From Sphingopyxis sp. GW247-27LB (lineage in GTDB: Bacteria; Pseudomonadota; Alphaproteobacteria; Sphingomonadales; Sphingomonadaceae), in the NCBI RefSeq assembly GCF_002277025.1, contig NZ_NIWD01000002.1, positions 62,001 to 126,000 of the forward strand: a stretch of 64,000 bases of DNA. Reading direction: 5' to 3'. Shown in pieces: positions 358-14,078 of this stretch. Each line of letters opens with the position of its first letter. The stretch's first letter is position 1. A program made the position numbers and the translations under genes. The notes beneath the pieces are model-generated. The model was not told the origin of the DNA, searched no databases, and saw only the letters and a list, made by a program, of their open reading frames with translations.

Positions 358-735
358 ATGGCTGATCTTGCAAAGATCGTTGAAGACCTTTCGGCGCTGA
401 CCGTCCTCGAAGCGGCTGACCTGTCGAAGCTGCTCGAAGAAAAGTGGGGCGTTTCGGCCGCCGCTGCCGTGGCGGTTGCCGCTCCGGGCGGCGCGGGCGC
501 CGCTGCTCCCGCCGCTGAAGAGAAGGACGAGTTCGACGTCATCCTGACGGGCGACGGTGGTCAGAAGATCAACGTCATCAAGGAAGTCCGCGCGATCACC
601 GGCCTGGGTCTTGGCGAAGCCAAGGCGCTCGTCGAAGGCGCGCCGAAGGCCGTCAAGGAAGGCGTGAACAAGGCCGAAGCCGAAGAGCTGAAGAAGAAGC
701 TCGAAGCCGCCGGCGCGACCGTCGAACTGAAGTAA
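358..735 (+). CDS. rplL: 50S ribosomal protein L7/L12
   Basis: L7/L12 is the multicopy stalk protein that recruits translation factors to the ribosome. The 125-residue product has the N-terminal dimerisation helix ([20 protein letters not shown]), the alanine-rich hinge around residues 36-55, and the C-terminal domain with the conserved [20 protein letters not shown] stretch and the GATVELK end. Two ATGs lie close together (352 and 358). The second is chosen because GGAG at 347-350 then has a normal 7-base spacing, and because L12 proteins start MADL. A strong terminator follows at 786. Confidence 0.97.
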
Positions 736-785
736 TTCGGTTCGCGGACGGGGGCCGGTTCGCCGGCTCTGTTCCGATGAAAAGA

Positions 786-819
786 AAAAGGGCGGTGCCG
801 CGAGGCACCGCCCTTTTTT
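786..819 (+). terminator. rho-independent terminator after rplL
   Basis: A 9-bp stem GGCGGTGCC / GGCACCGCC (791-799 and 804-812) with a GCGA loop is followed by six T. A-rich sequence before it makes it workable on the minus strand too, where it would end the convergent gene that stops at 841. Confidence 0.9.
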
Positions 820-840
820 CATGGCGTTCCAGCGGAGCGA

Positions 841-1878
841 TCAGCGACGGGTCCAGCCAGGGCGAAGATCGCCGGAGCGGCCGCGGGCGGGCTCGGGGCG
901 GCGCACTTCCTGCTCGACCGGCGCGGGTTCGACGCGGTGCGAGATTTCCCACGCGCTCGCGGGCTTGCGGCGCAGGTCCTTCTGCCCGGCCAGCGTGTCC
1001 TCATAGGCCTGGCGCTCCTGCTGATCGAGGAAGCGCGCACGTTTCAGTCGCTTGGCAAGGGTAGCGAACGGATTGTCGGGCGTCGGCCCGGCGAGCGCCA
1101 TCGCTTCGTGGCGACCCATGCTGCCGTGCGGCGCCGCGGCGAAAGCCGGCGTGGAGCGCGGCTCGGGCGGTGCGGCGGGCGCAACCGGCTCGGCGGCGGG
1201 CGGGCTATAGGGGACCGCTTCGGCCGCCGCCATCTCCTCGTAACTCATGCCTTCGTCGATCGCTTCGCCCGCGTGGCGGCGGCGGCGGGCAAAGGCAAGG
1301 CCGGCACCGCCGACGATCAGCAGCGCGGCGGCACCGCCCGCCAGCTCCCAGGGAAAATCACCGTCGGCCGGGGCGGCCGTTTCGACCGGAGCCGGCACGG
1401 CGTCGGCGACCGGTTCGGGCAGGGTCGTCATGGGCGCGGTTGTCGATCCGGCTTCCGTTCCAGACACCGCATCGGCCGACGCTTCGGCAGGGGCGGGCGC
1501 GGCGGCTTTCGGCGAAGCGGCGGGGGCCCGTTCGGCGCTGCGCTGGCGGGGCGCGGGGCGCTCGGCGCGCTCGGACGCCGTCGAGGCGGCGGGCGCCTCG
1601 GCCTTGGGCGCGGGCTCGTCGGGAACGGGCGGCAGGTCGAGCGGCACGCGGATGACGGGCTTGGGCGCCGGCGTTTGCGCGGTCTGCTGCGCCGGGGCGG
1701 GTGCTGTCGGGTTGGGTGCAGGGGCAGGCGCCGGGGCTGCGACCGGCGGCGGCGTGCCGACGGGCGAGGTCATCGGAACGGTCGGGGTCTCCTGCGCCAA
1801 AGCGGCGGGAGCGGAGAGAGCCAGGAACGCGGCAATCGCGCTCATGGCGGGGCGGGAGAGGGGAATATTCTTTGTCAT
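841..1878 (-). CDS. proline/alanine-rich single-pass membrane protein, unknown function
   Basis: Not recognised as a named family. The 345-residue product has a signal peptide (about residues 1-29, ending ALAQ), a long Pro/Ala/Glu-rich, probably disordered region (30-175), one transmembrane segment (about 178-197), a positively charged RRRRH stop-transfer signal, and a charged cytoplasmic tail with an EAMALAGPTPDNPFATL segment and an Arg-rich end. The low-complexity periplasmic part suggests a wall-spanning spacer. The ATG at 1878 is chosen because the signal peptide starts there; no clear ribosome binding site is seen, and the frame stays open further upstream into what looks like shadow sequence. 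It converges on the rplL terminator. Confidence 0.7.
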   Translation of the reverse strand: MTKNIPLSRPAMSAIAAFLALSAPAALAQETPTVPMTSPVGTPPPVAAPAPAPAPNPTAPAPAQQTAQTPAPKPVIRVPLDLPPVPDEPAPKAEAPAASTASERAERPAPRQRSAERAPAASPKAAAPAPAEASADAVSGTEAGSTTAPMTTLPEPVADAVPAPVETAAPADGDFPWELAGGAAALLIVGGAGLAFARRRRHAGEAIDEGMSYEEMAAAEAVPYSPPAAEPVAPAAPPEPRSTPAFAAAPHGSMGRHEAMALAGPTPDNPFATLAKRLKRARFLDQQERQAYEDTLAGQKDLRRKPASAWEISHRVEPAPVEQEVRRPEPARGRSGDLRPGWTRR

Positions 1879-2009
1879 GGCGAAGGAGAAACGAGCGGCG
1901 CTCGCAAAGTGCTGCCGAAAAGCGCCGGTTTTCGCGATGAACGGTGGCCGCCGGGCGGCTGGACGAAGAATCGGGCCCCCTTCGTCGTGTCCAAGAACCG
2001 CTTTTGCGG

Positions 2010-3521
2010 TCAGCCGAGCGCGGCGGCTTCGTGCTTGTCGAGCGTTGTCGATGCCGCTGCGGAGATCGCGGCGCCGACGAGCGCCATGTCGCGGTCGAGC
2101 CGGTCGTCGAGTGCGGGATCGGGCAGGGCGGCAAGCTCCGCGATCAGCGGCATCGACAGCGACAGGCGCAGCGTGCCGGCGGCACGGCCGTCGGACATCC
2201 GGTGAGTGCGGACGGGTTGCCCCAGCCGCACCTCGCGTCCCAGCCAGAGGCGCGAGCGGCGGGCGATATGGCCGTGTATCGTGCGCGCGGCGTCGAAGTC
2301 GCAATCGGGCCAGCGCGCGGTGAGATCGAGCGTGCGCAGCGTCTCGGTGGCGAGGCAGGCCGTGCCGGTGCCCGGCACCTCGGCGAGCTCGAGCCGCTGC
2401 GCGAGCCGGGCGGCGTGGTGACCGAAACGCGCGGCGACGGCGCCCGCGCGCTCGGCGGGCAGCGCGGCGAAGCGCTCGAGCTCGATCATCGCCGCTTCGA
2501 GCCGCAGCAGCAGGCCGAAATTGCCCGACGCGGGTAGCGCGTCGGCGCCCGGCCAGTCGGCGGGCCATTCGGCGCGGTTCGCGATCCGGCGGTAGCCGAC
2601 GGGTAGCGGCAGCGCCCGTTCCCGCATCGCTTCGGGAATCAGCGCGAAGCCGCTGAAGGGTGGGCCGCCCGCGAATTTCGACCCGGTGAGCAGGACGACG
2701 CAGCCGAGCGCGAGATATTGCCGGATCGCCGCGGCGGCGATGCGGAGCTGGCAGGCATCGACGACGATCGTGACCGCATCGCCGTGCGTCGCGACGAGCC
2801 GCTCGACGTCGGCGAGCACGGGCAGCGTCAGGCCTGATTTCGACCCGTGCACGACATGCACCACCGCGCGGCGGCCGCGCGTGGCGGCGCGCTCGATATG
2901 GAGCGACAGTTCGGCGGCGACGGCGGCCGAGGCGCGCGGCGCTCCCGCCGCGTCGCGGATGGCGACGTCGACGAGCTCGGTTCCCGCGAAGGCGGGGTCG
3001 ATCGCGGCCTGCGCGACGACGCGCGCGCCCGTCGCGGTCTCGCCCGCGAAGAAGCGGCCCGCCGCGCTGTGGACGCAGCCGCTGCCGACCTCGTCGCGCC
3101 CGAGCAGGACCGCGGTGACCGGCCGCCCGTCGTGCCGCGCGGCGAGCCCCGCATATTCGAGGTCGGTGCCCGACGCCGCGAACACGATCGCGGTGTCGGT
3201 AAGGCCGAAATAGGCGGCGAGCTTGAAGCGCAGGATCGCCAGCCCCTCGGCATAATCCTCGTCGGCGACGGGGCGGTCGAGGCGCGTGCCCCAGCGCGCG
3301 GCGAGTGTGTCGAACGCCGGGCGCGAAATGCTGCTGATCGTCGACGAACCATAAGCGAGCGCGTCCGACGGCAGCACGCTGGCGTAATATAGGTTGCAGC
3401 CGCTGGCGTCGGGCCGGATGCGGGCGTCGCCGCCGCTCACCAGCGCGGACGCGAGCCGGGCGGCGTCGCGGGGCCAGGGCGCTGCGCGGCCTTGGTGGGA
3501 TGCGGACGCGGTGAGCAGCAT
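2010..3521 (-). CDS. PLP-dependent fold-type I enzyme (aminotransferase class V-like)
   Basis: A 503-residue protein with the layout of a fold-type I pyridoxal-phosphate enzyme: FAASGTDLEY near residue 114 (phosphate-binding turn), VVDACQLR with Asp255 (contacts the pyridine nitrogen), and LLTGSKFAGGPPFSGF with Lys282 as the likely Schiff-base lysine. VVHVVHGSKSG near 221-230 is also conserved-looking. No signal peptide is seen, so it should be cytoplasmic. The reaction cannot be told; desulfurase, lyase or transaminase are all possible. It is divergent from an ATP-grasp ligase 129 bases away that is coupled to a nucleotidyltransferase, which suggests one pathway. The start at 3521 has AAAGG upstream. 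It is longer than typical class V enzymes (about 400 residues). Confidence 0.75.
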   Translation of the reverse strand: MLLTASASHQGRAAPWPRDAARLASALVSGGDARIRPDASGCNLYYASVLPSDALAYGSSTISSISRPAFDTLAARWGTRLDRPVADEDYAEGLAILRFKLAAYFGLTDTAIVFAASGTDLEYAGLAARHDGRPVTAVLLGRDEVGSGCVHSAAGRFFAGETATGARVVAQAAIDPAFAGTELVDVAIRDAAGAPRASAAVAAELSLHIERAATRGRRAVVHVVHGSKSGLTLPVLADVERLVATHGDAVTIVVDACQLRIAAAAIRQYLALGCVVLLTGSKFAGGPPFSGFALIPEAMRERALPLPVGYRRIANRAEWPADWPGADALPASGNFGLLLRLEAAMIELERFAALPAERAGAVAARFGHHAARLAQRLELAEVPGTGTACLATETLRTLDLTARWPDCDFDAARTIHGHIARRSRLWLGREVRLGQPVRTHRMSDGRAAGTLRLSLSMPLIAELAALPDPALDDRLDRDMALVGAAISAAASTTLDKHEAAALG

Positions 3522-3567
3522 GAGGGGCCTTTCCGGAAGAGGAGCCTCGGCCGGGCTAGCGCGCCAA

Positions 3568-3607
3568 GATGACAGTGATTTGGCGTTTCGGTTTCAGCGC
3601 TGTCATC
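3568..3607. promoter_or_regulatory. inverted repeat in the PLP-enzyme / ATP-grasp divergent promoter
   Basis: GATGACAG (3568-3575) and CTGTCATC (3600-3607) are perfect inverted arms 24 bases apart, in the 129-base gap between two divergent genes. A further GGTCATG follows at about 3612. It could be a shared operator; nothing shows which protein would bind. Confidence 0.35.
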
Positions 3608-3650
3608 GAACGGTCATGCCCCTGCAACCTGGCTGTGGTCGGATCGCAAC

Positions 3651-4682
3651 ATGCAAACGACCGACCTCGTCCCGACCCGGCTGCCCGATCGCCTTCGCGA
3701 TACGCAGCGGCTTCTGTTCATCGCCAAGCACGCCCGCTGGACCGGGGGCCTGCACCCCGAAGACGGCAATCACGCCCTCTACCACCGCGAGGTGCGCGAG
3801 ATATTGGAGGGGCTGGGCCTGCGACTGTCGGTGGCGGACAGCTATGCCGCGCTGTTCGACCGGCCCGACGCCGACTTCGTCTTTCCGCTGCTCAACCGCG
3901 GCGGCTTCTTCAATTCGGAGATGCTGCTGCCGCTGCTCTGCAACCGCGTCGGCCTTTCCTATGTGGGTGCCTCGCCGATCGTGCGCGGGCTGTCGGACGA
4001 CAAGCATCTGACCAAGCTGGAGGCGGCGGCGCGCGGCGTGCCGACCGCGCCCTGGACGCTGTTCCGCCGCGGCGCGCCGGTCGACGTCGCGCGCTGCCCG
4101 CCCGCGCGGCGCTGGGTCATCAAGCCGAACAACAGCTCGGCCTCGTGGGGGATTCGCGACGCGCACGACCGCGGCGAGCTGGCGCAGGCAGTGGCCGAGA
4201 TCCACGCGCTCGACCATGACGCGATCGTCGAACCCTTCATCGACGGCAGCGATGTCGAGGTGCCGGTGATCACGGTAGGCGGCGCGCCCGCTATCCTGCC
4301 GATGATGATCTTCGAGCAGACCGATCCGACGCACCTTCGAACCTATCAGGAGAAGCGCGACCTCGTCGACCGCAGCGCCAAATACAGCCTGCGGCTGTTC
4401 GACGACGCCGAACTGGAGGCGCGGATCGCCGCCCATGTAGAGCAGATGGTCGAGGTCTTTCGGCCGTTCGACTATGGCCGTTTCGAGTTCCGGGTCGATT
4501 TCGCGAGCGGCGAGGTGCGGCTGCTCGAGGTCAATCTGAACTGTAACCTCTGGTCCGAGAAGGTCTTCGGCCGCGCGGCGGTGGCGGCGGGCTTCACCCA
4601 GGCCGACCTGATCGAGACGATCGTCGCCGAAAGCATGATCCGGCAGGTAGAGGCCGCCGGCGCGCGGCGCGACGCCGCATGA
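3651..4682 (+). CDS. ATP-grasp ligase, D-Ala-D-Ala ligase-like fold
   Basis: A 343-residue ATP-grasp protein. Visible signatures are RWVIKPNNSSASWGI (ATP-binding lysine and loop, about residues 154-168), AIVEPFIDGSDVEVPVI (the E-F-I-x-G-x-E-like segment), and FEFRVDF...LLEVNLNCNLW near the C-terminus (metal-binding Glu/Asn). Such enzymes join a carboxylate to an amine or another nucleophile through an acyl phosphate. The N-terminal region does not match amino acids usual for Ddl itself, and no cell-wall genes are adjacent, so a peptide-like ligase for a small metabolite is likelier. Its stop overlaps the next start by four bases (ATGA at 4679), so the two genes are translationally coupled. 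Confidence 0.8.
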   Translation: MQTTDLVPTRLPDRLRDTQRLLFIAKHARWTGGLHPEDGNHALYHREVREILEGLGLRLSVADSYAALFDRPDADFVFPLLNRGGFFNSEMLLPLLCNRVGLSYVGASPIVRGLSDDKHLTKLEAAARGVPTAPWTLFRRGAPVDVARCPPARRWVIKPNNSSASWGIRDAHDRGELAQAVAEIHALDHDAIVEPFIDGSDVEVPVITVGGAPAILPMMIFEQTDPTHLRTYQEKRDLVDRSAKYSLRLFDDAELEARIAAHVEQMVEVFRPFDYGRFEFRVDFASGEVRLLEVNLNCNLWSEKVFGRAAVAAGFTQADLIETIVAESMIRQVEAAGARRDAA

Positions 4683-5540
4683 CCGGCTCGATCCTGATCC
4701 TGGCCGGCCGCCGCCCCGGGGCGGTCGACGCGCTCGCGGCGGCGCACGGCGTCGCCGACAAATGCCTGGTGCCCGTCGCCGGGCGGCCGATGATCGCGCA
4801 TGTCCTCGACAGTGCGGCGGCAAGCGGTGCCGAGCGGATCTTCGTGTCGACGCACCACACCACGCTTCTCGAAGACATCGACGATCGGGTCATCGCCGCG
4901 CTGGGCGAGCGGCTGGTCGTGGTTCCCGCCGCCGATAATCTCGCGGACTCGGTGCTCGCGGTCGCCGGCCTCGCGGCTTTTCCGCTGCTGATCACCACCG
5001 CCGACAATTGCCTGCTCACCCCCGACACGATCGCCGAGATCGGCCGCGAAGCGGCGCGGCTCGGCGCCGGCGCGGGGGGTCGCGCTCGCGCGGCGCGAGG
5101 ATGTGCTCGCGGTCCATCCCGAGGGACAGCGGCGCTTCTATGAATTTTCGGATGTCGCGGTGTCGAACTGCAACGCCTATTGGATCGGCGACCGCGGTGC
5201 GCTGAAGGCCGCCGAGGCGTTTCGCGGCGGCGGCCAGTTCGTCAAGAAGCCGATCCGGGTGATGCAGGCCTTCGGGCTGATCAACCTGCTGCGCTTCCGC
5301 TTCGGGCTCGGCCCGATCCACCACATCTTCCGCCGCATCTCGCGCCAGTTGAAGGTCGACATCGCTCCGCTGCTGGTCAGCGACGGGCAGACGGCGATCG
5401 ACGTCGACAACGAACGCTCGCTGCGCGTCACCGAGACGCTGATGGGGCGCCGGGCCGCGGTCAGTCCGCGACCCAGTTTCCGTGAAAGCCCGGCGGCACC
5501 CGATGCGGCAGATGCACGACGGCTTGCGGCGGTCCCATAA
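4679..5540 (+). pseudogene. MobA-like nucleotidyltransferase, interrupted by a frameshift
   Basis: The first frame (from ATG 4679) has a nucleotidyltransferase start: ILILAGRRPGAVDAL, then DKCLVPVAGRPMIAHVL (signature lysine) and LLITTADNCLL (metal-binding Asp). This frame leaves the family pattern at a run of six G at 5074-5079. Dropping one G continues as GVALARREDVLAVHPEGQRRFYEF and then SNCNAYWIGD in the next frame, to a stop at 5540, giving about 286 residues. The gene is therefore either a recent pseudogene, a phase-variable gene, or carries a sequencing indel. The family transfers NMP to sugar or alcohol phosphates. Its last 80 bases overlap the end of the convergent carotenoid oxygenase gene. 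It is coupled to the preceding ATP-grasp gene. Confidence 0.75.
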
Positions 5541-6900
5541 AGTCGTCGGCGTTCAGGATCATGAGGTCGGTGGTCTCGTCGTTCCTGTCGACGACGAGGC
5601 CGACCAGCCAGCCGTCATCCTCGGCCCCTTCGGTAGCGCGCGGCACGAAGACGAACTCGCCGGGGTGGCGGCCGGGGCCGAAATCGCGCGTCTCGGTGAT
5701 CCCGCGTTCGAGGTCGTGGCGGAACAGGCGGGTGTCGGCGATCGCCAGCTCGCCCGGCCCGTCGGGTAGCGCGACGCTGTAGACATAGCGATAGGGCCGC
5801 GTCGTCCGCCGCTCGTCGTAGCGCGGGAATTCCTGGTTGTGATCGTGGATGACGGCGCGGGTCGTGGTGCCCGCGGCCGGATCGATCGTCCAGCGCTCCA
5901 TGCGCGAGCGCGGGCTGTCGGGGCCGCGTTTCGATTCCGCGAACATCGTCTCGTGCGCGGCGACATCGACGATCACCTTACCGTCCGCCGTCTCGAACGC
6001 GTTGGCGGGGTGGAAGACATAGCAGGGGTCGACCGGCACCCAGACGATCTCGCTGCCCGCGCCGGTGCGCGGGAGAAGGCCGACGCGCGCCGGGTGCGCC
6101 TCGTTCCACGCATAGGGGAAGCGATAGCCCGCGAGCAGCGACTTCATCGAGAAGGTCACGGGCAGATCGAAGACGAGGACGTAATTCTGCGTGATCGCGC
6201 AGTCGTGGATCGACGGGCCGTCGGCGACCGCGACCGCTTCCTCGCGGATCACATGCGCGTTGGCGTCGAGCACGACGTGCCACACCTTGTTGGGCTGCTC
6301 GCCCTGATAGGTGATCGCGTGCGTTTCGCCCGCGAAGGGGTCGTGGTGCGGATGCGCCGTGTAGGGGCCGGCGAGCGTGCCGTCGAAAGGGTTGTGCGCG
6401 ATGGTGTCCAGCGTGTCCGACATTTCGACCGGCTTGCCCCCCGCCTCGACGATCGCGAAGGTGCGGCCGGCGAGGCCGACGACATTGGTGTTGGGCGCGT
6501 CGAAGCCCTCGGCGCGCGGGCCGGGAGGTATCTCCTCGCCGAGCTTCGCGCACGCCTCGGCACCGCGCACCCAGCGGTTGCGATACCAGAGCGCGGCGCC
6601 GCCCTCGATGCGGATGCCGTGGACCATGCCGGCGCCCGTGAACCAGTGATAGCTCGCGGGATCGGGGGGGAGAGCCGGGTTGGGACCGTTGCGCAGATAG
6701 CGGCCGGAGAGCGCCGTGGGGATCTCGCCCTCGACGCGCAGTTCCTCGAGGGTGAACTCCTCGGTCATCGGCTTGTGGATGCCGGTGAGATACGGATGGG
6801 CGTCGGTGGGGCGGGGGAGGCGCTTGCGGTTGAAGTCGGCGACCTTGCCGATGCCTTTGGTCACCGCGCTGCGGATCAGGGTTTCGACGTTGCTGGCCAT
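5461..6900 (-). CDS. carotenoid cleavage oxygenase (RPE65 / lignostilbene dioxygenase family)
   Basis: A 479-residue non-haem iron oxygenase that splits a C=C bond of a carotenoid, apocarotenoid or stilbene. The four iron-binding histidines of the seven-bladed propeller are visible: His183 in TAHPHHDP, His232 in SIHDCAITQNY, His297 in CYVFHPANAF and His473 in GFHGNW at the extreme C-terminus. YLRNGPNPALPP and WFTGAGMVHGIRI near the N-terminus are also family hallmarks. The start at 6900 follows AAGGAG, so the longer open frame upstream is not coding. It is divergent from a TetR regulator 84 bases away, whose likely operators cover its promoter. No carotenoid biosynthesis genes are nearby. The substrate cannot be told. 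Confidence 0.92.
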   Translation of the reverse strand: MASNVETLIRSAVTKGIGKVADFNRKRLPRPTDAHPYLTGIHKPMTEEFTLEELRVEGEIPTALSGRYLRNGPNPALPPDPASYHWFTGAGMVHGIRIEGGAALWYRNRWVRGAEACAKLGEEIPPGPRAEGFDAPNTNVVGLAGRTFAIVEAGGKPVEMSDTLDTIAHNPFDGTLAGPYTAHPHHDPFAGETHAITYQGEQPNKVWHVVLDANAHVIREEAVAVADGPSIHDCAITQNYVLVFDLPVTFSMKSLLAGYRFPYAWNEAHPARVGLLPRTGAGSEIVWVPVDPCYVFHPANAFETADGKVIVDVAAHETMFAESKRGPDSPRSRMERWTIDPAAGTTTRAVIHDHNQEFPRYDERRTTRPYRYVYSVALPDGPGELAIADTRLFRHDLERGITETRDFGPGRHPGEFVFVPRATEGAEDDGWLVGLVVDRNDETTDLMILNADDFMGPPQAVVHLPHRVPPGFHGNWVAD

Positions 6901-6967
6901 GACGCTTCTCCTTAAGCCGGAAGTTGGCGAAGGTGCCGCGGAGCGTGGGTTGCGGAACCGACTCGCA

Positions 6968-7016
6968 ATGTTTACAGTGGAAACATGATGGCGAACAAAG
7001 ATAACAGTGTCAACAT
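6968..7016. promoter_or_regulatory. twin operator-like sites at the carotenoid oxygenase / TetR promoter
   Basis: Site 1 (6968-6986) is the inverted repeat ATGTTTACAGTGGAAACAT. Site 2 (7000-7016), read on the minus strand, is ATGTTGACACTGTTATC, sharing ATGTTxACAxTG with site 1. Their centres lie about 31 bases apart, close to three helical turns. Both overlap the first codons of the TetR gene and the likely minus-strand promoter, as expected for autoregulation plus control of the oxygenase. Confidence 0.55.
6985..7013 (-). promoter_or_regulatory. sigma-70-type promoter for the carotenoid oxygenase gene
   Basis: On the minus strand a perfect TTGACA (7013-7008) is followed after 17 bases by CATCAT (6990-6985, four of six matches to the -10 consensus). 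Transcription would start near 6978 and run into the oxygenase gene. The -35 lies inside operator site 2 and the -10 overlaps the TetR start codon. Confidence 0.5.
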
Positions 7017-7596
7017 AAAAGATGCGCCCGCGAAGGCCGGGCGCGCTTACCATCATGGCGACCTGCGCGCGGCGGTGATCGCGGCGGGGCTCGAGCGGCT
7101 CGCCGGAGGCGACGCGGGCGAGCTGGGGCTGCGCGCGCTGGCGCGCGATGTGGGGGTCAGCGCGACCGCGCTCTATCGGCATTTCCCCGACAAGGAGGCG
7201 CTGCTCGATGCGCTCGCCGAGGAAGGGCTGCGGCGATTGGGCGCGCTGCAGGCGCAGGCGTGGCTGAAGGCGGGCGGCGGGCGCGCGGGGTTCAAGGCGA
7301 CCGGCATCGCCTATGTCCGCTTCGCGCATGACGAGCCCGCGCTGTTCCGCCTGAGCTTCACGCGCCAGATGCCTGAGCGCAAGGGCGAGGATGAGGGCGA
7401 CGGCGGCGAGGTCGCCTATAATCTGCTGCGCGCCGGGGTGGGCGAGGTGTTCCCGGCGGAGTCGGTCGACGCCGCCGCGCTCCACGCCTGGGCGCTGGTC
7501 CACGGCCTCGCGATGCTGGTGCTCGACCGGCGCGTCGACTGGGACGAGGCGATGGTCGCGCGGGTGGTCGGGCTGACCTTCGGCGGGGTGGATTGA
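6985..7596 (+). CDS. TetR/AcrR-family transcriptional regulator
   Basis: A 203-residue repressor-type protein. The helix-turn-helix lies at about residues 25-65: HHGDLRAAVIAAGLERL then LALARDVGVSATALYRHFPDKEALLDALA-like sequence, the classic TetR pattern. The C-terminal half resembles the ligand-binding domain of small TetR proteins, including an AYVRFAHDEPALFRLSF segment that is common in this family. It is divergent from the carotenoid oxygenase and very probably controls it in response to a hydrophobic ligand. ATG at 6985 or 6988 may be the start; no strong ribosome binding site is visible and the first codons overlap operator-like sequence. Confidence 0.9.
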   Translation: MMANKDNSVNIKDAPAKAGRAYHHGDLRAAVIAAGLERLAGGDAGELGLRALARDVGVSATALYRHFPDKEALLDALAEEGLRRLGALQAQAWLKAGGGRAGFKATGIAYVRFAHDEPALFRLSFTRQMPERKGEDEGDGGEVAYNLLRAGVGEVFPAESVDAAALHAWALVHGLAMLVLDRRVDWDEAMVARVVGLTFGGVD

Positions 7597-7649
7597 GGGA
7601 TCGGTTCGGGCGCTGGCGGATGGCGGTTTCGGGGTGGATTTGAGCCATT

Positions 7650-7759
7650 CCCCTCCCTTTTAGGGAGGGGTTAGGGGTGGGTGCGCGAGCGGAGCGAGCC
7701 CACAAAGGACGCCGCCTTCGGCGGCTACCCACCCCCAGCCCCTCCCTAAAAGGGAGGGG
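7650..7759. repeat. nested double-hairpin intergenic repeat (CCCCTCCC family), copy 1
   Basis: Two 21-base near-palindromes, CCCCTCCCTTTTAGGGAGGGG (7650-7670) and CCCCTCCCTAAAAGGGAGGGG (7739-7759), are themselves inverted copies, and the stretches inside them (TTAGGGGTGGGT and ACCCACCCCCAG) also pair. The whole can fold as two small hairpins or one long one. Similar architecture is found at 22402, 36681 and 40846. It occupies the gap between the TetR gene and the next terminator. Confidence 0.85.
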
Positions 7760-7810
7760 AGAAGCTATGGCCGAAACCGGCCGAAAGCTCCTTCGCTCCA
7801 TGCGCAAGCA

Positions 7811-7845
7811 AAAGGGCGCGAGAACCGTTGTTCTCGCGCCCTTTC
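7811..7845 (-). terminator. rho-independent terminator for the triplicated-domain gene
   Basis: A 12-bp perfect stem (7814-7825 with 7830-7841) and CGTT loop; on the minus strand it is followed by TTTTGC. It lies 18 bases after the stop of the gene ending at 7863. On the plus strand only three T follow. Confidence 0.8.
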
Positions 7846-7862
7846 GTGAAAGCCCGCCGAGC

Positions 7863-8726
7863 TTAGTTGGCTTCCTTCGCCTGCGGTTCGTCCGCGGCCG
7901 CGGCGGCCGCATCGGCGTCGGCCGTTTGCGGGGCCTCGGCGCCGGTCGCCTGGGCGACGGCGGCGGCGAACTGATCGGCGGTGTAGGCGGCGGTGAGGCC
8001 GCTCGCGCCCATGTTGAAGGCGCTGCGCGGCAGCGCGACGTCGCCGCTCGTCGTGGTGACGACCACATTGGCGGCGTCGAACGACTTGACCGTGCCGAGC
8101 ACCGCCGTGCCCTGGAGGCCGCGCACTTCGGCGCCCGGCTTCAGCGCCGCGGTCACCGCGGCGTCATCGGCCGCCGAAGCCTGGCTCGCCTGCTGCATCG
8201 CGGCGGCGAACTGGTCGGCGGTGAAGCTGGTCTGGAGGCCGTTCTGCGCGACGAAGAAGGCGTTCTTCGGCACTTTGACGTCGCCGGTCGGGGTGGTCAC
8301 GACAACGCCGGACGCGTCGGCGAGCTTGACCGTGCCGAGCACGGTCGAGCCGTTGGCGCTGCGCACCTCGGCGCCGGGCTTGAGCGCGGCGTCGAGCGCC
8401 TGGGCACTGGCGGCGGCGGCCTGATCGACCGCGGCGGTCAGCTGGGCGACGGTGACAGTGATCGTCGGGCCCTTCTCGCCCTTTGCAAAGGCGTTCTTGG
8501 GCAGGGTGACCGGCTTGCCGTTCAGCGTCACGACGACATTGTCGCCGGCGTCGCTGGCGACGGGGCCGATCGTCGCGCCTTCGCTGTCGTAGACGACGGT
8601 GCCGGGCGCAAGGTTGGGGCCGGCGGCCGGGGCAGCGGCGGGCGTACCCTGCGCCATCGCGGGCGCACCGGCCGCGAGGGCCATGCCGAGGGAAAGGGAA
8701 GTCACAAAAGCAGCGATCTTTCGCAT
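7863..8726 (-). CDS. secreted protein with three tandem PRC-barrel-like repeats, unknown function
   Basis: Function not recognised. The 287-residue product begins with a clear signal peptide (MRKIAAFVTSLSLGMALAAG, cut after AMAQ near residue 26) and then carries three copies of an about 80-residue unit, starting near 41, 117 and 197. Each copy has PGxxVxxxxGxxxGxV followed by a V-V-V-T strand and an LPKNAF-like turn; copies 2 and 3 are closest. Two copies are followed by ADQFAAAxxQA helices. The GxxxGxV beta pattern resembles PRC-barrel strands, but this is only a resemblance. The C-terminus is Ala/Asp-rich. AAGGAG precedes the start at 8726. The protein should be periplasmic or exported. Confidence 0.8.
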   Translation of the reverse strand: MRKIAAFVTSLSLGMALAAGAPAMAQGTPAAAPAAGPNLAPGTVVYDSEGATIGPVASDAGDNVVVTLNGKPVTLPKNAFAKGEKGPTITVTVAQLTAAVDQAAAASAQALDAALKPGAEVRSANGSTVLGTVKLADASGVVVTTPTGDVKVPKNAFFVAQNGLQTSFTADQFAAAMQQASQASAADDAAVTAALKPGAEVRGLQGTAVLGTVKSFDAANVVVTTTSGDVALPRSAFNMGASGLTAAYTADQFAAAVAQATGAEAPQTADADAAAAAADEPQAKEAN

Positions 8727-8962
8727 CGCGTCGTCTCTCCTTGAAAATTTGGTGATTGCGGTCAGAGTCTCAACGCATCCGCGCGGGCGATGACCACGGA
8801 AATGCTGCCGAGCCGTGGCTGTTGCGGGATGAACCGTTTCAAAGTGGCGCACATCCTGCTGCGCTGAGCGGCAGAAGGTCGTGGTTTATACTCGGGGTTC
8901 GCCGCCCTAGGATCGCCGAATACGCCGGTCGACCGAGTCCCGGCGCGCGAAAGGAAAGGCGG

Positions 8963-9505
8963 ATGACGACCATGACCGCAGCGACGGCACCCGAACTCGA
9001 CATCGCGCGCTGGTTCAACAGCGCGCCGCTGTCGCTTGCCGACCTGCGCGGGCGCGTCGTGGTCATCGGGGCGTTCCAGATGCTGTGCCCCGGCTGCGTC
9101 GCCGAGAGCCTGCCGCAGCTTCGGCGCATCCACGAGATCTTTCCCGGCGACGCGGTAACGGTGATCGGCCTGCATAGCGTGTTCGAGCATCACGCCGCGA
9201 TGACGCCGGTGTCGCTCGAGCCCTTTCTTCATGAATATCGCATCGCCTGGCCTGTCGCGGTCGACCGCCACGACGATCCGGCGGGGGTGCCGGTCACCAT
9301 GGCGCGCTATGGCCTGCGCGGCACGCCGAGCCTGTTGCTGATCGACCGGCAGGGGCGCCTTCGCCTCCACCGCTTCGGCCATGTGCCCGACCTCGCGGTC
9401 GGCGCGGCGATCCAGCAGCTGCTCGACGAAGGCGAAGGGAAGGGCGTGGCCGTGGTGGCCGAAGGCGGCGGCGAAAGCTGCGCGGTCGGGGGCGATTGCG
9501 GCTGA
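8963..9505 (+). CDS. thioredoxin-fold redox protein (TlpA/AhpC-TSA-like)
   Basis: A 180-residue thioredoxin-like protein with the active-site motif Cys42-Pro-Gly-Cys45 in GAFQMLCPGCVAESLPQL, the segment VTVIGLHSVFEHH, and the cis-proline region RGTPSLLLIDRQGRLRLHRFG. There is no signal peptide at the chosen start, so it should act in the cytoplasm. An extra Cys pair sits in the tail (ESCAVGGDCG), which could serve as a resolving pair or bind metal. The start at 8963 has AAGGAAAGG upstream; a longer upstream frame lacks such a site. The gene stands alone, 236 bases from its divergent neighbour. Confidence 0.85.
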   Translation: MTTMTAATAPELDIARWFNSAPLSLADLRGRVVVIGAFQMLCPGCVAESLPQLRRIHEIFPGDAVTVIGLHSVFEHHAAMTPVSLEPFLHEYRIAWPVAVDRHDDPAGVPVTMARYGLRGTPSLLLIDRQGRLRLHRFGHVPDLAVGAAIQQLLDEGEGKGVAVVAEGGGESCAVGGDCG

Positions 9506-9547
9506 TGGTGGCGAAATTCGGTGGAGCGGGTGATGTTTTTCTTTCTT

Positions 9548-9623
9548 CGTCACCCCGGACTTGATCCGGGGTCCCGCTTTTCGACGTTGCTGAGCGGGAC
9601 CCCGGATCAAGTCCGGGGTGACG
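9548..9623. repeat. 31-bp perfect inverted repeat, CCCCGGACTTGATCCGGGG type
   Basis: Two perfectly complementary 31-base arms (9548-9578 and 9593-9623) flank a 14-base spacer, and each arm contains its own small palindrome CCCCGGA..TCCGGGG. This type of element is widespread between genes in alphaproteobacteria. It lies in the 394-base gap before rpoB. It may act as a bidirectional terminator or be a non-autonomous mobile palindrome; there is no gene inside. Confidence 0.9.
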
Positions 9624-9691
9624 AGGGTGGACGGGGTAACGGAGCCTTCGCAAGTCAAGCGACGTCGCACTCGAACCACGCCCCCCCAGCG

Positions 9692-9720
9692 TTGACTTCG
9701 CGCGCCCCCAATCCTATATG
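9692..9720 (+). promoter_or_regulatory. sigma-70-type promoter upstream of rpoB
   Basis: TTGACT (9692-9697), a 17-base spacer and TATATG (9715-9720) form a good housekeeping promoter. It predicts a start near 9727 and an rpoB leader of about 170 bases. This would give rpoBC its own promoter in addition to any read-through from rplJL, which is cut off by the terminator at 786 and the accessory genes between. The rest of 9624-9899 shows no gene. Confidence 0.55.
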
Positions 9721-9899
9721 GCTTGCACACCCCAGCGTCCGGGACGCGGCCTGACTTTGCGCATCGGGCCACAGGAATAGGGCGCCGGGGATTTCGAGAT
9801 GCGTTGAGAAGCTGCGGTAAACCGGCAACGGTTGCTCGCGGCCTTTTTGCGTCTCTATCGCGCTCGCGATTTGATTTTATTGAGGCGAGACAATCACAT

Positions 9900-14078
<4,179 letters not shown>

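Follow-up and report, generated by a model that had tools for sequence, protein, structure and literature searches.

A pyridoxal-phosphate enzyme, an ATP-grasp ligase and a MobA-like nucleotidyltransferase form a conserved sphingomonad gene module that may tailor an exported lipid or glycan

We analyzed a 64,000-nucleotide stretch of the Sphingopyxis sp. GW247-27LB genome (hereafter the window; part of contig C12 in a genome of 4.79 Mb), which carries a gene for a pyridoxal 5'-phosphate (PLP)-dependent enzyme divergent from a gene for an ATP-grasp ligase, the latter followed by a gene for a MobA-like nucleotidyltransferase (NTase). We found that these three genes are a real conserved module of sphingomonads, and their presence across genomes is nested, the NTase being the most widespread member and the PLP gene the least. 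Flippase, glycosyltransferase, ATPgrasp_ST and DAG-kinase genes that adjoin the module at some loci in other genera favour a role in tailoring an exported lipid or glycan with an amino-acid-bearing activated group, a reading in which we place a little less than even confidence.

Results

Nested co-occurrence of the three genes

We searched 199 Sphingomonadaceae genomes with profiles of the three proteins and found the NTase in 78, the ATP-grasp ligase in 71 and the PLP enzyme in 32. A score gap, set once the scores were known, separates NTase matches of ≥257 bits (the high class) from those of ≤200 bits (the low class), and the matches listed took in the whole of the high class. The NTase counts are of genomes with a high-class match together with the window's own (G000), which was placed there by hand since its split gene scores only in pieces. 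Every genome with the PLP gene also has the ATP-grasp gene (32/32), with the pair no more than 2.5 kb apart in all 32, and 70 of the 71 ATP-grasp genomes have a high-class NTase, the exception being G490; eight genomes carry the NTase without the ATP-grasp gene. The co-occurrence of ATP-grasp with NTase gives a Fisher p of 2e-43, a figure that overstates the case because the genomes share ancestry, for which it is uncorrected and through which all of these genome counts are non-independent. The two genes lie within 2.5 kb of each other in 42 of the 70 genomes and are at least 54 kb apart or on different contigs in the other 28, and the co-occurrence is therefore more than synteny. Dispersal of the genes in relatives, which the original prediction (made from the sequence alone) had named as the sign against a joint locus, is thus seen for the NTase with respect to its ATP-grasp partner, but not for its presence in the same genomes nor for the PLP/ATP-grasp pair.

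A genus survey covered 60 genomes, 35 of them same-genus genomes besides our own. Close ATP-grasp homologues (79-87% identity) were found in 27/35, and NTase homologues (query, the second piece of the gene described below) in the same 27, with the match starting on the same strand, ~0.4 kb past the end of the ATP-grasp gene; the PLP gene was present in 10/35, always adjoining the ATP-grasp gene. The module proteins are 67-93% identical among same-genus relatives. Since the wider surroundings are conserved in Sphingopyxis as well, linkage there is weak evidence, and it would fit inherited synteny alone, with the three genes serving separate pathways. However, the linkage is seen again in other genera: in G384 (another genus of the same family) the trio is reordered, with ATP-grasp reverse, PLP forward and NTase reverse, in surroundings unlike those of Sphingopyxis, and in G042 and G045 (other families) the ATP-grasp gene (39% identity) and the NTase are neighbours once more in other contexts, no PLP match being found in either genome. 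Together with the 28 genomes that hold the ATP-grasp and NTase genes apart, these arrangements leave little credence for synteny alone.

Across the class, the ATP-grasp gene (E≤1e-25) and the PLP gene (E≤1e-5) were each found in 6/385 alphaproteobacterial genomes, an even draw from the class that includes our own. This rarity, the clustering across genera and the nested co-occurrence support well the earlier proposal of a dedicated product outside core metabolism. A single motif from the PLP alignment, run over 84,980 species genomes, gave 551 stretches encoding PLP relatives (tblastn E≤1e-3, computed relative to the candidate stretches alone), and the best 80 of these, a choice that favours close relatives, were kept as named loci. 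Among the genera in their titles are Sphingopyxis, Sphingomonas, Novosphingobium, Erythrobacter, Altererythrobacter, Croceicoccus, Sphingorhabdus, Blastomonas and Sphingobium, and one further locus, labelled Chloroflexi (72% identity), is probably a mis-binned contig. An ATP-grasp gene lies within 1.3 kb of the PLP gene, on the opposite strand, in 76/80 named loci, and an NTase is present in the locus in 45/80. Four named loci are without the ATP-grasp gene (L102, L115, L137 and L142); in the first three, a distance of 3-508 bases separates the start of the PLP match from the edge of the available stretch.

Neighbour genes in other genera

Neighbouring open reading frames (ORFs) were called with a simple script that misses genes, so the neighbour cluster counts are lower bounds. 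Regions were fetched for 20 of the 39 genomes with ATP-grasp and no PLP gene and for 20 of the 28 genomes with a solitary NTase; one member each of the clusters labelled flippase, GT4 and ATPgrasp_ST was checked by Pfam, as were two DAGK members from different clusters. Of the 199 genomes searched, at least 24 of the 78 with the NTase have a flippase of the Polysacc_synt type no more than 2.5 kb from it, and at least 30 of the 79 with any of the three genes have one that close to one of them. In the solitary-NTase regions, a flippase of one cluster (one member of which is Polysacc_synt) was present in 12/20. An ATPgrasp_ST-cluster gene adjoins the ATP-grasp/NTase unit in 7/20 regions lacking the PLP gene, joined in three of the seven by a GT4-cluster gene, and in four named loci a flippase and a DAGK_cat-cluster gene come after the PLP gene. 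In two Sphingobium loci (L131, L135) the trio precedes another flippase and a low-class NTase; genes like these form a separate cluster in our own genome, near a DAGK_cat gene. We also considered whether the ATPgrasp_ST gene stands in for PLP as the divergent partner of ATP-grasp and dropped the idea, since it is on the same strand as ATP-grasp.

Other neighbours were named by eye, as were all genes called sdhB, zapE, rne, flagellin and FlbT in this work: among 61 named loci analysed, the gene pair has sdhB-like genes nearby in 33, zapE-like genes in 31 and rne-like genes in 15. Separately, a gene at L189:8205-9164 and its homologues (cluster C22, 10 loci) appear in 10/20 solitary-NTase regions, and the one member tested has an Nmad3 domain (nucleotide modification associated domain).

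The ATP-grasp ligase

The ATP-grasp gene (positions 3651 to 4682, plus strand) encodes a ligase of 343 amino acids to which Pfam, a structure model and alignment assign the Ddl fold. PF07478 (Dala_Dala_lig_C) matches at 59.4 bits (cut-off 24), the model (predicted local distance difference test, pLDDT, 89.5) matches the Ddl fold with Z 30.6 (root-mean-square deviation, rmsd, 2.6; 303 residues aligned, 21% identity), and K158, R277, E293 and N295 agree with the ATP/Mg residues of the genome's own Ddl. These likenesses, perhaps with a retained Lys-Tyr pair, are what one would expect if the enzyme were a second D-Ala-D-X ligase serving to vary peptidoglycan, with the PLP enzyme and the NTase as unrelated passengers. 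However, the protein falls far under the NCBIfam Ddl cut-off (TIGR01205; 78.5 vs 245.65 bits), and two motifs that we take to be the substrate-binding motifs of Ddl are replaced, EGSS by SSAS and PGMTPLSL by CNLWSxKV. Among 49 family members compared with the genome's own Ddl, the residues are S at Glu142 (49/49), A at Ser144 (48/49), N at Gly277 (49/49), W at Thr279 (49/49) and K at Ser282 (49/49). The genome has a separate ddl elsewhere, among murC, murB and fts genes (neighbours named by eye), and the near-constant company of the NTase (70/71) does not suit a passenger. We therefore regard a second D-Ala-D-X ligase as highly improbable, and plain Ddl identity was dropped on the cut-off, the two motifs and the separate ddl. 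Membership of the ligase in a family of known function, which the original prediction had set as the finding that would overturn it, did not emerge: Ddl is nearest by profile and by fold, but this nearness is not decisive because both motifs are replaced in 49/49 members.

In two related genomes (L068, L069), a pair of divergent ATP-grasp paralogues flanks a substrate-binding-protein-like gene, with histidine-kinase-like genes around (by eye).

The nucleotidyltransferase and its frame change

The NTase gene begins on the plus strand in an ATGA stop/start overlap with the ATP-grasp gene (4679 to 4682; sequence pattern match). It is split in the assembly: a first piece (4679 to 5143, plus strand) reads for 154 amino acids in one frame, and a second (5103 to 5540, plus strand), 145 amino acids as listed, lies in another frame that is open further upstream and is at most 93% identical to same-genus NTases. 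The frame changes near a run of six G (GGGGGG, 5074 to 5079, plus strand), and all 27 same-genus relatives compared (L008-L034) read across this site in a single frame; because of this, the gene would appear to be either broken by a true mutation or wrongly sequenced in this assembly, and we prefer neither. The three-gene layout first described for this locus is thus largely upheld, in the divergent PLP and ATP-grasp genes, Lys282 in TGSKFAGG and the ATGA coupling, but the NTase occupies two frames here and not one open frame.

PF12804 (NTP_transf_3) matches the first piece at 40.6 bits (cut-off 27), and NTP_transf_3 matches the G384 homologue at 47.8 bits. R12, K28 and D109 are invariant in 16 sequences. 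A phosphonate route of the PntC/PhnW type was considered (2-aminoethylphosphonate transaminase is a class V enzyme and PntC is an NTase) and rejected, the best TIGR02320 (PEP mutase) score in our own genome being 28.5 bits against a cut-off of 319.55.

In the stretch L076:7129-9757, on contig C14 of the genome, a second NTase (31% identity in a profile alignment) lies near a DAGK_cat gene. Alpha/beta-hydrolase-like, phosphoesterase-like and flippase-like genes (by eye) lie in the same locus, a candidate lipid head-group locus.

The PLP enzyme

The PLP gene (2010 to 3521, minus strand) encodes 503 amino acids of an unannotated family, with Lys282 in TGSKFAGG. The protein has no match at E≤1 in Pfam or NCBIfam and none at E≤10 in the PDB by sequence (phmmer). 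With PF00266 (Aminotran_5), the window protein gave no match and 2/46 family members matched at E≤0.1 (best 0.0036). Assignment to a known PLP family by sequence was abandoned, an hmmsearch with alignment A5 reaching a best E of 0.84, as was kinship with the genome's own SufS-like protein, for which an hhalign profile comparison was insignificant (probability 0.2%). An AlphaFold2 model built from 46 sequences (pLDDT 90.0; predicted TM-score, pTM, 0.90) has a NifS-like protein as its best structural match (Z 24.3, rmsd 3.4, 340 residues aligned), and NifS-like, AGT and PhnW structures score Z 24.3 to 22.1 at 10-16% identity in the 50 rows listed. The best 50 rows of a Foldseek search mix several fold-type-I subgroups, and the broad fold group is all that emerges from the structure searches. 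The model is a confident one and resembles class-V-like fold-type-I enzymes.

Invariant in all 54 aligned sequences are S117-G-T-D120, D255-A-C-Q258, T279-G-S-K282, R340 and R452. Asp255 and Lys282 are 27 residues apart, a spacing that favours Lys282 as the putative Schiff-base lysine with Asp255 upstream; K228, however, is likewise invariant. Cysteine desulfurases carry a catalytic Cys loop ahead of the C-terminal Arg; before R452 the protein reads RLGQPV, where the SufS-like protein has RAGHHCAQP (matched by eye).

Sequence relatives of the PLP gene are found on plasmids, in 33 records that are all of Rhizobium, Sinorhizobium or Neorhizobium and all below 60% identity; in the 20 rows shown, those genes that bear a name are called 'hypothetical protein'. 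Neither an ATP-grasp gene nor an NTase is annotated in either of the two annotated plasmid neighbourhoods examined, and near the ATP-grasp gene of pNGR234a neither a PLP gene nor an NTase is annotated. A PLP relative of 30% identity, encoded on a plasmid of Sinorhizobium medicae (L159:7956-9491; no Pfam match at E≤0.001), stands directly after nonribosomal peptide synthetase (NRPS) and AMP-binding genes, with a phosphopantetheinyl transferase near. The distant relatives in G393, G137, G119 and G420 lie in other contexts, near Pyridoxal_deC genes in G137 and G119 and near flagellin-like genes in G119 and G420. At L074:4033-10807 and L075:7738-10735, distant PLP relatives occur with flagellin-like and FlbT-like genes, and both loci also encode a protein of 400-411 amino acids with no Pfam match above cut-off and a C-terminus that is ATP-grasp-like by eye.

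Genomic setting of the module

The starts of the PLP and ATP-grasp ORFs are separated by a gap of 129 bp (3522 to 3650), the presumed site of both promoters. The module sits between rplL (352-735) and rpoB (9723-14078; rpoC is next), and a convergent RPE65-type (carotenoid-oxygenase-type) gene and a TetR gene lie beyond the NTase, before rpoB. Whereas rplL and rpoB are normally close neighbours, they are ~9 kb apart in the window (735-9723), with the module, the carotenoid-oxygenase-type gene and the TetR gene in between. Parts of the rplL-module-rpoB arrangement were found again in several Sphingopyxis relatives.

Discussion

What was observed is the three genes with their linkage and nested co-occurrence, together with predicted folds; the scheme that follows is what we infer from them, in its reactions, nucleotide, order of steps, acceptor and export alike. 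The NTase would attach a nucleotide, probably cytidine monophosphate (CMP), to a phosphorylated small acid or sugar. On the NTase-derived intermediate, the ATP-grasp ligase would then use ATP to link a carboxylate to an amine through an amide (or ester) bond, while the PLP enzyme, acting on an amino-acid substrate, would make or alter the amine partner. The group may finally be passed to a lipid or glycan, with a flippase carrying the acceptor over the inner membrane. The nesting of the three genes, NTase widest, ATP-grasp within it and PLP within that, points to the NTase product as the base, which the ligase elaborates, with the PLP enzyme as a further addition.

Several observations weigh against exported lipid or glycan tailoring. 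The support that the neighbours in other genera lend to the lipid or sugar head group guessed in the original prediction is indirect. The trio is non-obligatory, since 39/71 ATP-grasp genomes are without the PLP gene. The flippase is away from the module in most genomes and adjoins low-class NTases too (e.g. in G452), so its link with the module could be incidental, and the proximity counts are raw counts; in our own genome, the co-located flippase type has no match at E≤1e-30. In the PDB the NTase profile best matches Thermus TTHA0179 (E 2.5e-12), which is labelled a hypothetical protein, and the Lys-Tyr pair of Ddl is perhaps retained in the ligase (K244 in 46/49 members, Y245 in 45/49; another alignment places the region differently). 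Finally, the part of the window examined, its first 20 kb, showed no envelope or cell-wall genes. The original prediction had likewise reported no cell-wall genes nearby, which is true of that part but hardly informative for a module lying between rplL and rpoB, and envelope-type genes do adjoin it at some loci in other genera.

The same Sphingopyxis locus, free of envelope neighbours in the stretches examined, would suit a soluble small molecule with no attachment to the envelope, for example a metabolite, signal or protectant that is nucleotide-linked or resembles a modified dipeptide. No conserved transferase partner of the trio was found, the PLP relative after NRPS and AMP-binding genes on the Sinorhizobium plasmid looks like secondary metabolism, and so do the two distant PLP relatives near amino-acid decarboxylase genes. 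However, flippase, GT4, ATPgrasp_ST and DAGK_cat neighbours recur in other genera, and a PLP/ATP-grasp linkage that is stable over many genera is less typical for a secondary metabolite. On balance we consider a soluble product unlikely, though deserving of serious weight, and continue to favour tailoring of an exported lipid or glycan. A more specific form of the latter, on which we would rely somewhat less than on the soluble product, is a surface-lipid or surface-glycan head group not described before, a CMP-activated small acid with an amino-acid-derived amide, made by the three module enzymes, exported by a flippase and possibly a counterpart of the phosphoglycerate head group of Caulobacter.

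Should the tailoring reading be true, many sphingomonads would have in common a hitherto unknown envelope or metabolite chemistry. The module genes are easily overlooked because the PLP family is recognised by neither Pfam nor NCBIfam and the ligase resembles a D-Ala ligase, and among open-access literature, at the level of titles and abstract openings, we found no paper on the locus. The nested presence offers a natural strain series (NTase; NTase and ligase; all three) in which lipids or glycans could be compared directly, knowledge of the product being unneeded.

Among known systems, Ddl and VanA are like the module ligase in the ATP-grasp fold and in the residues equivalent to K158, R277, E293 and N295, and unlike it in the two replaced motifs, the NCBIfam score and the placement of the genome's own ddl. 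The class-V aminotransferase group (NifS, AGT, PhnW) shares with the PLP protein the predicted fold-type-I structure, and the DACQ and TGSK motifs, with Asp255 and Lys282 27 residues apart, would fit that group too; in contrast, identity is 10-16% in the 50 structure rows listed, contact with PF00266 is weak at most, and the module protein is ~100-160 residues longer than most chains listed. CpgD, a CTP:phosphoglycerate cytidylyltransferase, makes CDP-glycerate in Caulobacter for a phosphoglycerate head group, according to the available parts of PMC12275187 and PMC13228409. It appears from these to be of the same MobA/IMPCT-like kind as the module NTase, and its R16, K26 and D112 could equal R12, K28 and D109, paired by motif order and unaligned; the same parts mention no ATP-grasp or PLP partner, unlike the arrangement here.

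In Campylobacter jejuni, serinol-P and ethanolamine-P are products of Cj1437 and Cj1436, and glucuronate in the growing chain is amidated by a TupA-like ATP-grasp domain, as described in the accessible portions of PMC11800397 and PMC11800379. There, as far as these portions go, Cj1436/Cj1437/Cj1438C unite PLP chemistry with an ATP-grasp amide ligase in a single surface-glycan pathway, and the module could work likewise, with the PLP enzyme making an amine, the ATP-grasp ligase amidating a uronic acid and the NTase activating a sugar. The GT4, ATPgrasp_ST and flippase genes adjoining the module in some loci are consistent with such amidation. On the other hand, the C. jejuni ligase domain is described as TupA-like whereas that of the module is Ddl-like, those portions mention no dedicated NTase for the amidation branch, and no uronate-forming gene was noticed among the neighbours, where no systematic search for one was made; a capsule-amidation-like pathway seems improbable to us, if slightly less so than synteny alone. 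The characterised logic nearest to the module is that of CpgD, with its CDP-activation of small phospho-acids, and that of the C. jejuni capsule, with its ligase-plus-PLP tailoring; both are offered here as analogies.

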